This document shows, in pieces, positions 39,176-41,696 of a DNA stretch of 64,000 nt. This DNA is from an uncultured Aeromonadales bacterium. GTDB lineage: Bacteria > Pseudomonadota > Gammaproteobacteria > Enterobacterales > Succinivibrionaceae. The position numbers and the translations under genes are program-made. The DNA is taken from contig CACYPI010000003.1 in assembly GCA_902776275.1 (NCBI GenBank), positions 16,104 through 80,103 on the forward strand, in the 5' to 3' direction. Position 1 is the first letter of the stretch. Each line of letters begins with the position of its first letter. Under the pieces are notes generated by a model. It did not search any database. It was not told the DNA's origin and worked only from the letters and a program-made list of their open reading frames with translations.

Positions 39176-40204
39176 TCAGTGTCCCGACGACACGTCGAGG
39201 TCCGCAGGCGGCCAGTTCTCCAGGCGCATGCCCAGGGAAAGCCCGCGCTCTGCGAGGACGTCCTTGATCTCGGTGAGCGACTTCTTGCCGAGGTTCGGGG
39301 TCTTGAGCAGCTCGACCTCAGTCTTCTGGACCAGATCGCCGATGTACTTGATCCCCTCGGTCTTCAGGCAGTTCGCCGAGCGGACGGTGAGCTCCAGATC
39401 CTCGACCGGGCAGATGAGCTTCGGGTCGATGAGCGGGCGGAGCGAGACGTCCTCTGCAGGGGCGACGCTGTTGCGGATGTCGAAGAAGGTGTTCAGCTGA
39501 TCGGCGAAGATGGTCGCCGCGATGCTGACCGCATTCTTCGGATCGATGGTGCCGTTGGTCTCGATGTTGAGGATCAGGCGCTCCTTGCCGTCGGAGATCG
39601 GCTCCTCGTGCACGGCGACATTGAGCACCGGGCAGTAGGAGGGATCGATGAGCAGGCGGCCGATGAAGCGCTCGTCGGCATTCTCGGTCGAAGGACGAGC
39701 GACCACCGGGCAGTACCCGCGGCCCTTGGAGACGTGCATGTGCATCTTGAGCACGGTCTTCTCATCGGTCAGATGGCAGATGACGAGATCGGGGTTCTTG
39801 ATGGAGACGCCGCCCGGGCAGATGATGTCGCCGGCGGTGACGGTGCCGATGCCGGACTTGTTGATCTCAAGCACCGGATCGTCGTGAAGCAGGCCTTCGA
39901 CAGCTACCGCGACTTCCTTGAGGTTTAAAAGAACAAGAAGAATGTCTTCCTGGATGCCTTCAACTGCACTGTACTCGTGGACCACGCCGTCAATCTCGAC
40001 CGACGAAATCGCGTAGCCGGGGATCGAGGAAAGCATGATGCGGCGGAGCGCCGTCCCGACAATGTGGGCGTACTCGCGCTCGAAGGGCTCAAGGACGACC
40101 CTGTAGCTGTTCTCAGCCACAGTCTGGACTTCCTTGATGTTCGGCTTTAAAGAATCGATATTCTGATCCAAGGTTTGACCCTCGTCTTGACAGTTGATTA
40201 GCAC
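39176..40204 (-). CDS. rpoA: RNA polymerase alpha subunit, form A (keeps the beta-contact face)
   Basis: 342 aa (E. coli 329), GTG start, 39 bp after rplQ. The C-terminal domain (about 265-332) is nearly standard, with RSANCLK (Arg275 = E. coli Arg265) and LLKTPNLGKKSLTEIKDVLA. In the N-terminal domain the beta-contact part is kept: TALRRIMLSS (Arg54/55 = E. coli 44/45) and VHEYSAVEGIQEDIL. The opposite part is eroded. Where E. coli has ARVEQRTDLDKL, this has HEEPISDGKERL with about four residues deleted. The usually invariant LERGFGHTLGN helix reads FEREYAHIVGT. It is a full-length expressed-looking gene, not a pseudogene. With form B it probably makes a heterodimer. Confidence 0.93.
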   Translation of the reverse strand: MLINCQDEGQTLDQNIDSLKPNIKEVQTVAENSYRVVLEPFEREYAHIVGTALRRIMLSSIPGYAISSVEIDGVVHEYSAVEGIQEDILLVLLNLKEVAVAVEGLLHDDPVLEINKSGIGTVTAGDIICPGGVSIKNPDLVICHLTDEKTVLKMHMHVSKGRGYCPVVARPSTENADERFIGRLLIDPSYCPVLNVAVHEEPISDGKERLILNIETNGTIDPKNAVSIAATIFADQLNTFFDIRNSVAPAEDVSLRPLIDPKLICPVEDLELTVRSANCLKTEGIKYIGDLVQKTEVELLKTPNLGKKSLTEIKDVLAERGLSLGMRLENWPPADLDVSSGH

Positions 40205-40243
40205 AAACCGGACACGGGCGCGGGTTGCCCCGCGCCCGGAGTG

Positions 40244-40675
40244 TTACTTGGCCTCGGCTTCAGCAGCGGGGGCTTCGGTCTTCTCAGCCTTGTCAGCCTT
40301 GGCAGGCTCGGCCTTGGCCGGACGGTCCACCAGCATGATGTAGCACACGGGGGCCTGATCGCCAGGGCGGCGGCCCGCCTTGAGGATGCGGGTGTACCCG
40401 CCAGGGCGGTTCGCGGAGAGCTTGGCGATGACGGTGAACAGCTTGTTCACGACAGCATCGTCGCGCAGGCGGGCGAAGGCGAGGCGGCGGTTGGCCACGG
40501 TGTCGACCTTGGCGAGGGTGATCAGGCGCTCGGCGAAGCCGCGCAGCGACTTGGCCTTGGGAACGGTGGTCTTGATCACTTCGTAGGTAAAGAGCGCATT
40601 GGCAAGGTTGCGGTACAGGGCCGCGCGATGAGCGGCGGTGCGGCCGAGGTGGCGGCCGGCTAAACGATGACGCAT
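40244..40675 (-). CDS. rplQ: 50S ribosomal protein L17
   Basis: 143 aa (E. coli 127). The family core is clear: GRTAAHRAALYRNLANALF, KAKSLRGFAERLITLAK and NRPGGYTRILKAGRRPGD. The last 23 or so residues are an added Ala/Lys/Glu-rich tail (AKAEPAKADKAEKTEAPAAE). L17 lies near the polypeptide exit on the large subunit. It sits between the two alpha-subunit genes; normally a single rpoA precedes it and the operon ends with rplQ. Confidence 0.97.
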   Translation of the reverse strand: MRHRLAGRHLGRTAAHRAALYRNLANALFTYEVIKTTVPKAKSLRGFAERLITLAKVDTVANRRLAFARLRDDAVVNKLFTVIAKLSANRPGGYTRILKAGRRPGDQAPVCYIMLVDRPAKAEPAKADKAEKTEAPAAEAEAK

Positions 40676-40715
40676 TTCCTAATTCCTTTTGATAACAATT
40701 CGTTCAAACAATCGG

Positions 40716-41696
40716 TCACTTGAGCCCCGGAGGCGGCCAGTTGGCCACCCTCATGCCGAGGGAAAGACCTCTCTGGGCAAGGACGTCCTTGATCTCAGTG
40801 AGGGACTTCTTCCCGAGGTTCGGGGTCTTGAGCAGCTCGACTTCGGTACGCTGCACCAGATCGCCTATGTAAATGATGTTTTCAGCCTTGAGGCAGTTGG
40901 CGGACCTCACGGTCAGCTCCAGATCGTCCACAGGCTGCATCAGGATCGGATCGGGGAGCGGAGGAGCGGAAGGCTGGAGGGCCTGCTCGTCTATCTCGTC
41001 CTTGTTCACGATGTTGCTGATGCAATCCTTGAGGAGGTCGGACCCGCGCTTCAAGGCCTCGTCCGGAGCGATGACCCCGTTGGTCTCGATGTCGATCACC
41101 AGCCTGTCCAGATCGGTCCTCTGCTCGACGCGCGCGGACTCGATGCCGTACACAAAGCGGGTGACCGGGGTGTAGCTCGCGTCGATGAGGATGTCGTCCT
41201 CGGAGGACGGAGCCAGGTGCAGGTCGGAGGTCGAGAGCACGTAGCCATTGCCCGAGCTGATGCGGAGCTTCATCTCAAGCGCGGCCTTGTCGCCCTTGAG
41301 GGTGCAGACCAGCGCGTCAGGGTTGACGAAGGACACGCCCTCGGGGCACTCGAAATCGCCAGCCTTGACCGGGCCCTCGCCCTTCTTAGACACACTGGCC
41401 CAGACAGGAGAGGACAGGGGCTTGTCGGAACGGACCGCAAGGGTCTTGACGTTCATGACGACCTCGAAGATCGGCTCTGCGATGTCGGCCTTGACGTCAT
41501 TGATGCTCTTTACGCCATCGATGTGCATCGCGTCGACCGCGGTGCCCGGCATGGTCTTGAGCAGCACTCCGCTGAGCGCGGTGCCCAGGGTGTGGCCGAA
41601 GCCGCGCTCGAGGGGCTCGAGCACGACGTGGGCCGCGCTCGGAGAGACCTCGGTGAAATCGACCGGCTTCGGTTTGAGCAGTTCACAAACTGACAC
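40716..41696 (-). CDS. rpoA: RNA polymerase alpha subunit, form B (keeps the beta-prime-contact face)
   Basis: 326 aa, in the classic place between rpsD and rplQ. The C-terminal domain is standard (RSANCLK with Arg264; LLKTPNLGKKSLTEIKDVLA). The N-terminal domain keeps LERGFGHTLG and SARVEQRTDLDRLVID (189-202), the face that meets beta-prime in E. coli. It has lost the beta-contact signature: LRRILLSS is replaced by LSGVLLKT, so the key Arg45 is Gly, and the HEYSTKEGVQEDIL segment is KSINDVKADIAEPI-like. The pattern is the mirror image of form A. I infer it occupies the alpha-II position of the core enzyme. Confidence 0.93.
   Translation of the reverse strand: MSVCELLKPKPVDFTEVSPSAAHVVLEPLERGFGHTLGTALSGVLLKTMPGTAVDAMHIDGVKSINDVKADIAEPIFEVVMNVKTLAVRSDKPLSSPVWASVSKKGEGPVKAGDFECPEGVSFVNPDALVCTLKGDKAALEMKLRISSGNGYVLSTSDLHLAPSSEDDILIDASYTPVTRFVYGIESARVEQRTDLDRLVIDIETNGVIAPDEALKRGSDLLKDCISNIVNKDEIDEQALQPSAPPLPDPILMQPVDDLELTVRSANCLKAENIIYIGDLVQRTEVELLKTPNLGKKSLTEIKDVLAQRGLSLGMRVANWPPPGLK

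Follow-up and report, generated by a model that had tools for sequence, protein, structure and literature searches.

The genome analysed here belongs to the Succinivibrionaceae, a family of gut bacteria, and carries two alpha genes, alphaA and alphaB, whose losses of contact sequence complement each other. Its RNA polymerase is hence likely to work with an obligate, oriented heterodimer, in which we expect alphaA on the beta side and alphaB on the beta-prime side. Where we write that alphaA has lost the beta-prime face and alphaB the beta face, this is a statement about sequence. Judged from these losses, homodimers would most likely assemble poorly.

Two complete alpha genes in one operon

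The window, that is, the whole stretch of 64,000 nucleotides that was analysed, carries the genes in the order rpsM-rpsK-rpsD-alphaB-rplQ-alphaA, which places both alpha genes in the rpsM-rpsK-rpsD-rpoA-rplQ operon. All the features described here lie on the reverse strand. The upstream gene rpsD (ribosomal protein S4, 41749..42372) is followed by alphaB (40716..41696, 326 aa), the putative beta-prime-side alpha, in the usual rpoA slot, then by rplQ (ribosomal protein L17, 40244..40675) and by alphaA (39176..40171), the putative beta-side alpha. The initial annotation had reported two full-length rpoA genes on either side of rplQ, and both open reading frames are indeed present and complete. 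Each encodes a bacterial RpoA with PF01193 and PF01000 matches and with the N-terminal domain (NTD) and C-terminal domain (CTD) of alpha recognizable by sequence, and each matches alpha subunits in the PDB over nearly its full length. Both domains are also present in the predicted folds of the two proteins, and the genome contains two PF01193 matches and no third. On the coding strand, no promoter-like site was found between the alphas and one was found upstream of rpsM (43408-43380), and the single terminator-like site falls inside alphaA (39952-39934); the totals of both kinds of site equal the shuffled expectation and are hence uninformative.

Reciprocal losses at the contact faces

In alphaA, the motif TALRRIMLSS (40025..40054) keeps the beta-contact residues R44 and R45 (E. 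coli numbering, 33/33 alphaA), and HEYSAVEG (39956..39979) keeps the HEYS segment, which lies within the beta-protected stretch 65-75 (H66, E67 and Y68 in 33/33 alphaA). Its beta-prime hairpin is shortened and degraded, ARVEQRTDLDKL being replaced by EEPISDGKERL (39575..39607), which is 5 residues shorter. AlphaB has the reverse pattern. Its motif TALSGVLLKT (41553..41582) has lost R44 and R45 and is changed at positions 49 and 50 (S50 in 1/36 alphaB), SINDVKADIA (41478..41507) stands in the place of the lost HEYS segment (H66 in 0/36), ARVEQRTDLDRL is kept and the beta-prime hairpin SARVEQRTDLDRL (41100..41138) is intact. The features ascribed to the two forms in the initial annotation are therefore all found in the window. 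Across the eight genera in which the division is complete, R45 is present in 33/33 alphaA and 0/36 alphaB, and R191, Q194, R195 and T196 are present in 0/33 alphaA and 36/36 alphaB; these residue counts cover 33 alphaA and 36 alphaB rows, some rows having been dropped.

Of the conserved NTD positions, 17 survive in alphaA alone and 15 in alphaB alone; 8 of the alphaA-only and 5 of the alphaB-only positions fall in the beta footprint, and 0 and 5, respectively, in the beta-prime footprint, a contrast that supports the division (Fisher p 0.029). The alphaB-only positions inside the beta footprint (5/15) are 33, 34, 36, 38 and 47, and the assembly residues K86 and L48 are still found in 36/36 and 35/36 alphaB rows, respectively. 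Across the broad footprints the contrast is modest: subtracting the identity of alphaB from that of alphaA gives +0.08 for the beta segments, -0.24 for the beta-prime segments and +0.14 for the remaining NTD; alphaB is thus not worse in the beta segments than elsewhere. The broad-footprint statistic was reached in 287 of 20000 permutations and in 26 of 216 circular shifts for the fully divided genera, and in 3005 of 20000 permutations and 39 of 216 circular shifts for the half-divided genera described below.

The residues of the dimer cluster, defined after PMC3294249, are divided as well. In alphaA, positions 35 and 38 are changed (EYAHIV, 40058..40075; each in 33/33 alphaA) and 46, 50 and 227 are kept. 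AlphaB retains the ancestral half of the cluster with T38 (GFGHTL, 41586..41603; 36/36 alphaB) and is changed at 50 and 227. This reciprocity means that an A/B pair would have one cluster that is largely ancestral and another that is largely derived, whereas an A/A or B/B pair would mix them.

Predicted structures point in the same direction. The models of alphaA and alphaB prefer opposite alpha chains in all 7 PDB entries that list both chains for both models, a preference that comes from single-chain predicted models taken without a neutral single-alpha control; the structure lists of the two models share 17 entries, two of which (9msf and 9msg) assign both models to one and the same chain. 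The genome has one rpoB-family and one rpoC-family match. The earlier proposal that the two alpha roles have been divided is thus supported by the reciprocal loss of contact residues, the reciprocal dimer cluster and purifying selection on both genes (see below), and the single rpoB- and rpoC-family matches and the chain preference of the predicted models fit it further.

Graded states within the family

Two alphas are present in 45 of the 52 Succinivibrionaceae genomes having a match. In 44 of these 45, the window's genome included, both lie on one contig around rplQ in the same gene order, and an assembly mixture is therefore unlikely. Sorted by genus, the family has a single alpha in two genera, a duplicated alpha in which only the beta-prime face of alphaA is lost in four (half-divided), and fully reciprocal losses in eight (fully divided). 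In the species tree the single-alpha genera fall outside the half-divided and fully divided ones (96/91). Outside the family, all 24 order-mates carry a single alpha. In a set of 370 genomes of the class, a second copy was found in the genome of the window itself, in four Francisellaceae and in one further genome that is probably a mixture.

In the half-divided genera (g6, g7, g8 and g11), R45 is found in 8/8 alphaB as well as in 8/8 alphaA, and a B/B dimer may work there. The term obligate, used in the initial annotation, is accordingly weaker for these four genera. The half-divided alphaA has no deletion in its hairpin region, so the deletion most simply arose within the family. We infer that rpoA would have been duplicated beside rplQ, that alphaA would have lost its beta-prime face first and become confined to the beta side, and that alphaB would then have lost its beta face, turning the dimer reciprocal; this order of events, like the failure of homodimers, is read from present-day sequences.

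Start codons

Extended mechanically, the open frame of alphaA reaches a GTG at 40204. The start that relatives conserve is instead the TTG at 40169..40171, which stands behind GAGGGT; we take it as the start of alphaA, which thus spans 39176-40171 (331 aa). AlphaB starts with the GTG at 41694..41696. Among relatives, alphaA starts with TTG in 34/36 fully divided and 8/8 half-divided rows, and alphaB starts with GTG in 36/37 fully divided rows and with TTG in 8/8 half-divided rows. The rpoA of single-alpha family members starts with ATG, as against GTG or TTG in the duplicated genes. The change from ATG in both genes may lower the output of each alpha, as the enzyme would need one of each and not two of one; the switch thus possibly trims the dose. 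It is not common to alpha1 of the Francisellaceae, which starts with ATG in 8 and with GTG in 3 of 11 rows.

C-terminal domains

Both CTDs are E. coli-like, with 60/69 residues identical to E. coli in alphaA (39179..39409) and 63/69 in alphaB (40719..40934). Over 33 genomes, CTD identity is 0.961 among alphaA and 0.917 among alphaB, and between alphaA and alphaB it is 0.865 both within and between genomes. This equality rules out gene conversion as the cause of the similar CTDs, and purifying selection suffices to explain them. Little was found of a side-specific CTD signature: in a scan from residue 245 on, differences fixed at >=80% per paralogue occur only at 245, 246, 249, 252 and 255, which belong to the end of the linker. 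In the oriented heterodimer each CTD would be held at a fixed side of the enzyme.

Relation to known alpha pairs

As a kind, the oriented alpha heterodimer is already known from Francisella, in which alpha1/alpha2 heterodimers with a fixed orientation have been reconstituted (PMC3294249). There too, R45 and HEYS persist in one alpha, whose beta-prime hairpin is lost with a deletion; its partner keeps the hairpin and has lost R45 and HEYS, and T38 is changed in the first only (PMC3294249; PDB 6wmp chains A and B). An R45-keeping alpha without the beta-prime contact sequence and a partner that has it are found in 11 Francisellaceae pairs, and the partition runs in the same direction as ours at 16 positions and in the opposite direction at 1. 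The two systems differ in several respects. The alpha1 gene of Francisella comes after rpsD and the alpha2 gene is at another place (PMC3294249), whereas here the two genes share the alpha operon, with rplQ between them, and the putative beta-side alpha is the extra copy; the CTDs have diverged there and are E. coli-like here; the start codons have changed here, whereas most alpha1 rows keep ATG; and here half-divided and single-alpha relatives occur within one family. In engineered E. coli alpha heterodimers (wild type with R45A, cited in PMC3294249), the alpha without R45 sets the orientation, as is predicted here; unlike these, the pair described here is natural, and its beta-prime face and dimer cluster are also divided. 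A further comparison is with archaeal Rpo3/Rpo11 and eukaryotic RPB3/RPB11, which also combine two unlike alpha-like subunits, and there too one of the two is in contact with the beta-like subunit. In those pairs one partner is far smaller than the other and additional small subunits are required (PMC3294249), whereas alphaA and alphaB both keep a full NTD and CTD.

The initial annotation had proposed an origin separate from Francisella. The suggested survey of relatives found the paired genes in most of the family's genomes, and the CTDs differ between the two families. In the trees alphaA forms one clade and alphaB another, and a tree in which the family's alphaA and alphaB are constrained to group scores 1.39 log units above the free one (p 0.57). 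It is nevertheless conceivable, if unlikely, that the pair shares ancestry with alpha1/alpha2 through gene transfer or one old duplication, which would leave the mechanism unchanged. The common partition and the similar deletion in alphaA and alpha1 speak for this, as does the NTD tree, where alpha2 is joined weakly to alphaB (88/60); under the AU test, neither alphaB with alpha2 (p 0.46) nor all alphaA with alpha1 (p 0.086) is rejected. However, fully divided alphaA with alpha1 is rejected (p 0.017), alpha1 groups with the single-alpha rows of family f190 (96/85), and the alphas of the two families separate once the interface columns are removed. Shared ancestry also sits poorly with the single alphas of the order-mates and of two genera inside the family, with the rarity of two-copy genomes in the class, with the half-divided alphaA that has no deletion, and with the difference in CTDs. 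The separate origin is thus favoured by the distribution and by most trees, with the exception of the alphaB and alpha2 grouping that the AU test retains, and there were probably two origins.

Alternatives to the proposed heterodimer

It is quite improbable that several polymerases (A/A, B/B and A/B in either orientation) coexist with their ratio as a regulatory device, an idea first put forward for Francisella. More than one form could assemble in the half-divided genera, where both alphas have R45; in the fully divided genera an A/A dimer would have no beta-prime hairpin and a B/B dimer no R45, in either copy, and the dimer cluster is reciprocal. In addition, a Francisella pull-down detected no homodimers, and the activity of alpha1 was only weak (PMC3294249). 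Still less credible, to the point of being hardly tenable, is the view that one of the two genes is redundant or decaying and plays no part in the main polymerase. By its position after rplQ, alphaA does look like the extra copy, but 12 genera have retained the two genes, with dN/dS <= 0.161 in the NTDs over 13 pairs, which indicates purifying selection on both alpha genes and rules out decay; the survey thus found two maintained alphas in place of relatives with one intact alpha and the debris of another. Moreover, no alpha with both faces exists in any fully divided genome examined, and decay does not yield reciprocal losses at known contact residues.

Significance

Several features appear to be new within the literature searched: the occurrence in a second lineage, the graded intermediates, the layout of the operon, the conservation of the CTDs and the switch of start codons. 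The full combination, a second and independent obligate oriented heterodimer that arose stepwise in one family, with a reciprocal dimer lock, the same residues as in the Francisellaceae, dose-adjusting starts and side-fixed CTDs, seems to us a reasonably likely reading. A passage from a symmetric homodimer to an asymmetric pair must have occurred en route to Rpo3/Rpo11 and RPB3/RPB11, and the bacterial case has so far been one long-branched lineage, Francisella, within the literature searched. With single, half-divided and fully divided states in one family and a site-by-site repeat of the Francisellaceae, the order of the steps and their reversibility become testable. If the oriented heterodimer is real, the family would have a natural polymerase with its two C-terminal domains fixed to known sides and, as both CTDs are near that of E. 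coli, would offer a natural tool for telling apart the roles of the beta-side and beta-prime-side CTDs at promoters.

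Gene order and distribution of the paired alphas

On the minus strand, the window reads rpsM-rpsK-rpsD-alphaB-rplQ-alphaA, where alphaB (40716..41696) and alphaA (39176..40171) are two rpoA copies, both matching solved alphas nearly end to end. Identity between them is 76 of 224 aligned residues in the N-terminal domain (NTD) and 59 of 69 in the C-terminal domain (CTD). Since this genome (2.54 Mb, 97% complete) contains two PF01193 matches and a single match each to the rpoB and rpoC families, two alphas apparently serve one large-subunit pair. Its rpoB open frame (contig C52, locus L157) spans 1512 codons, the first ATG being codon 4, and is longer than E. 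coli beta (1342 residues).

The survey of relatives proposed by the initial annotation found PF01000 matches in 52 of 56 Succinivibrionaceae genomes, the window's included, with paired genes in 45 and one match in six genomes of genera g5 and g10 and in G015, where the sole match sits at a contig end; no match was present in G003, G070, G072 and G079. Of the 45 two-copy genomes, 44 (43 relatives and the window) have the order rpsD-alphaB-rplQ-alphaA on a single contig. The alphas of G005 sit on separate contigs, each at a contig end, and a contig end cuts off alphaA of G017. In genus g2 (L075-L083), the rplQ and alphaA matches are often 250-540 bases apart, compared with about 40 in the window.

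Outside the family, all 24 order-mates searched have one PF01193 match apiece. Among 370 genomes of the class, two matches occur only in the window's genome, four genomes of family f70 and G268, and 13 have none. G268 (5.4 Mb, 4% contamination) carries a pair of ordinary alphas on separate contigs, both beside the usual neighbours (L106, L111), and is probably a mixed assembly. As the best PDB matches of two f70 proteins are chains A (G246, 564.7 bits) and B (G124, 641.5 bits) of 6wmp, f70 was identified as Francisellaceae. Of its 30 genomes, which cover six genera, 28 carry two PF01000 matches and the other two a single one; f190, the family listed next to it, has one match in two genomes and none in one. 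The divided pair is found across Francisellaceae, beyond the genus Francisella (L107-L115, L144-L156), with the partition in all 11 aligned pairs.

Complementary sequence loss at the subunit faces

E. coli numbering and residue roles follow PMC3294249. In the eight genera with reciprocal loss (fully divided), R45 and H66 are each retained in 33/33 alphaA and 0/36 alphaB, and R191, Q194, R195 and T196 each in 0/33 alphaA and 36/36 alphaB. These counts exclude truncated genes (alphaA of G011, G015 and G017, alphaB of G005); alphaA of G005 and G067, missed by the counting script, both have the alphaA pattern by eye. The first residues of G011 alphaA (L063; LDQIIDSIKPNIKD) are in a different frame from the remainder, due to either a frameshift or an assembly error. 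Operon order and reciprocal counts bear out the initial description of two full-length alphas around rplQ with complementary face loss, and the division of roles that it proposed is very likely right.

Of the NTD positions with at least 90% conservation across 30 single alphas, alphaA alone retains 17 and alphaB alone 15. Several features count against a clean picture: the contrast over the whole footprints is modest, the beta segments of alphaB are no worse than the remainder of its NTD, the beta footprint holds five positions retained only in alphaB, and K86 and L48 are retained in alphaB.

At the dimer contact, residues 35, 38 and 39 of one monomer meet 46, 50 and 227 of the other (PMC3294249). 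This cluster is reciprocal: alphaA is changed at 35 and 38 (33/33 each), mixed at 39, and retains 46 (33/33), 50 (32/33) and 227 (33/33), whereas alphaB retains 38 (36/36), has F (25) or Y (11) at 35 and L (27) or I (9) at 39, and is changed at 50 (35/36) and 227 (31/36), with V at 46 in 16/36. An A/B pair would hold one mostly ancestral and one mostly derived cluster, and A/A or B/B pairs would hold mixtures.

Predicted structures, selection and C-terminal domains

AlphaFold models without templates have mean pLDDT of 79.6 (alphaA) and 85.2 (alphaB), and the hairpin strands of alphaA (193-202/208-216) are shorter than those of alphaB (178-190/193-205). In the seven PDB entries (4mex, 8y5l, 6x6t, 6x7k, 7w5x, 7w5y, 6flq) for which Foldseek listed the two alpha chains against each model, model A has a TM of 0.59-0.61 to one chain against 0.54-0.57 to the other, and model B prefers the opposite chain in 7/7 (0.62-0.72 against 0.55-0.58). 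VIA lists, which give the single best chain per PDB entry, place alphaA on chains A or G in 42 of 50 listed rows and alphaB on B or H in 35 of 50; the 17 entries common to both differ in chain in 15 and agree in two (9msf, 9msg). We take A/G to be usually the beta-side and B/H usually the beta-prime-side alpha. These opposite preferences of the predicted models are weighed lightly, since TM was computed over full length including CTD placement and the models compared were those of alphaA and alphaB alone.

Both paralogues are under purifying selection, with dN/dS (NG86, 13 pairs; one CTD comparison saturated, several dS values above 1) of at most 0.161 in either NTD and 0.074 in either CTD. 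In the duplicated genomes counted, CTD residues 265, 268, 269, 296, 298, 299 and 302, which we take to be DNA-contact residues, are invariant in both paralogues, as are 285-289 and 317. By contrast, Francisellaceae CTDs differ at several of these positions (287 in alpha1 and alpha2 alike, 317 in most alpha2). Homogenisation of the two CTDs by gene conversion was considered and rejected.

Start codons

Starts, including those of family loci L054-L105, were assigned as the latest ATG, GTG or TTG with a Shine-Dalgarno-like stretch ahead of the conserved NTD. In the window, alphaA starts with TTG (40169-40171) and alphaB with GTG (41694-41696), each behind a Shine-Dalgarno. Single-alpha family members have ATG in 6/6, and the 34 outgroups have ATG in 29, GTG in four and none found in one; the rule probably misjudged three of the four GTG rows, as an ATG with its own Shine-Dalgarno lies just upstream. 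In duplicated genera, alphaA has TTG in 42/44 (fully divided 34/36, the other two being a GTG and a row at a contig edge with no start found; half-divided 8/8). Of the fully divided alphaB rows, 36/37 have GTG and the remaining one ATG, and all 8 half-divided alphaB rows have TTG. Francisellaceae alpha1, in contrast, lacks such a switch (8 ATG, 3 GTG of 11); by the same rule alpha2 has 4 ATG, 1 TTG and none found in 6/11. Weaker starts for both alphas would suit an enzyme requiring one of each, a possible dose adjustment.

Duplication history and comparison with Francisellaceae

Four genera (g6, g7, g8, g11; eight genomes) are half-divided. Their alphaA has A190, R191, V192, Q194, T196 and D199 each in 0/8 and R195 in 4/8, without the hairpin deletion, and their alphaB retains R45 (8/8), H66 (7/8), E67 (8/8) and Y68 (7/8). 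By parsimony, the beta-prime face of alphaA would have been lost first and the beta face of alphaB later. The single alpha of g10 (G027, L104) has beta-prime hairpin AREGSRTDLDKL in place of ARVEQRTDLDKL, a face altered without a second alpha.

In the NTD tree alphaA forms one clade (100/99) and alphaB another (100/97), both containing half-divided and fully divided members; without interface columns and with the CTD both persist (100/96, 100/95), half-divided alphaB not forming one clade. Neither tree by itself joins alphaA and alphaB. Constraining them together gave a likelihood 1.39 units above the free tree (AU 0.571), and constraining all family alphas together 1.26 units above it. In the ribosomal-protein tree the single-alpha genera (97/93) lie outside the half-divided (100/99) and fully divided (100/100) genera, which are joined at 96/91. 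The simplest reading is a duplication within the family after the single-alpha genera branched off; an older duplication with later loss in g5 and g10 is a less simple but viable alternative.

The initial annotation also suggested an origin apart from Francisella. Among the 97 positions that 41 single alphas conserve, 16 have diverged the same way in Succinivibrionaceae and Francisellaceae and one the opposite way (Fisher p 0.0004, positions not being independent; the observed score was 15, against at most 13 in 96 circular shifts). In the proposed trees with Francisella included, alpha1 clusters with both f190 rows (96/85) and alpha2 groups weakly with alphaB (88/60). Once interface columns are dropped, alpha1 and alpha2 come together in a group with outgroup rows (99/94), apart from the Succinivibrionaceae alphas. 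AU tests reject fully divided alphaA with alpha1 (0.0174); values are 0.0856 for all alphaA with alpha1, 0.461 for alphaB with alpha2 and 0.221 for alpha1 with alpha2. Distribution and most tree evidence favour two origins, although shared ancestry through one tree topology keeps some plausibility.

Searches of open-licence literature for rpoA or RNA polymerase alpha of Succinivibrionaceae, Succinivibrio or Anaerobiospirillum found no paper, and broader ones yielded work on Francisella or on unrelated subjects; this absence is not proof since most subscription papers lie outside their scope. Other two-rpoA genomes named in PMC3294249 are those of Chloroflexus species and Streptomyces avermitilis, together with Psychromonas ingrahamii and a Leptospira, whose copies are identical and recent; none of these belongs to Succinivibrionaceae. 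An oriented alpha heterodimer is a kind already known from Francisella; what appears new, judged by these searches, is a second lineage with graded states, the arrangement of its operon, CTDs that stayed unchanged and the switch of start codons.
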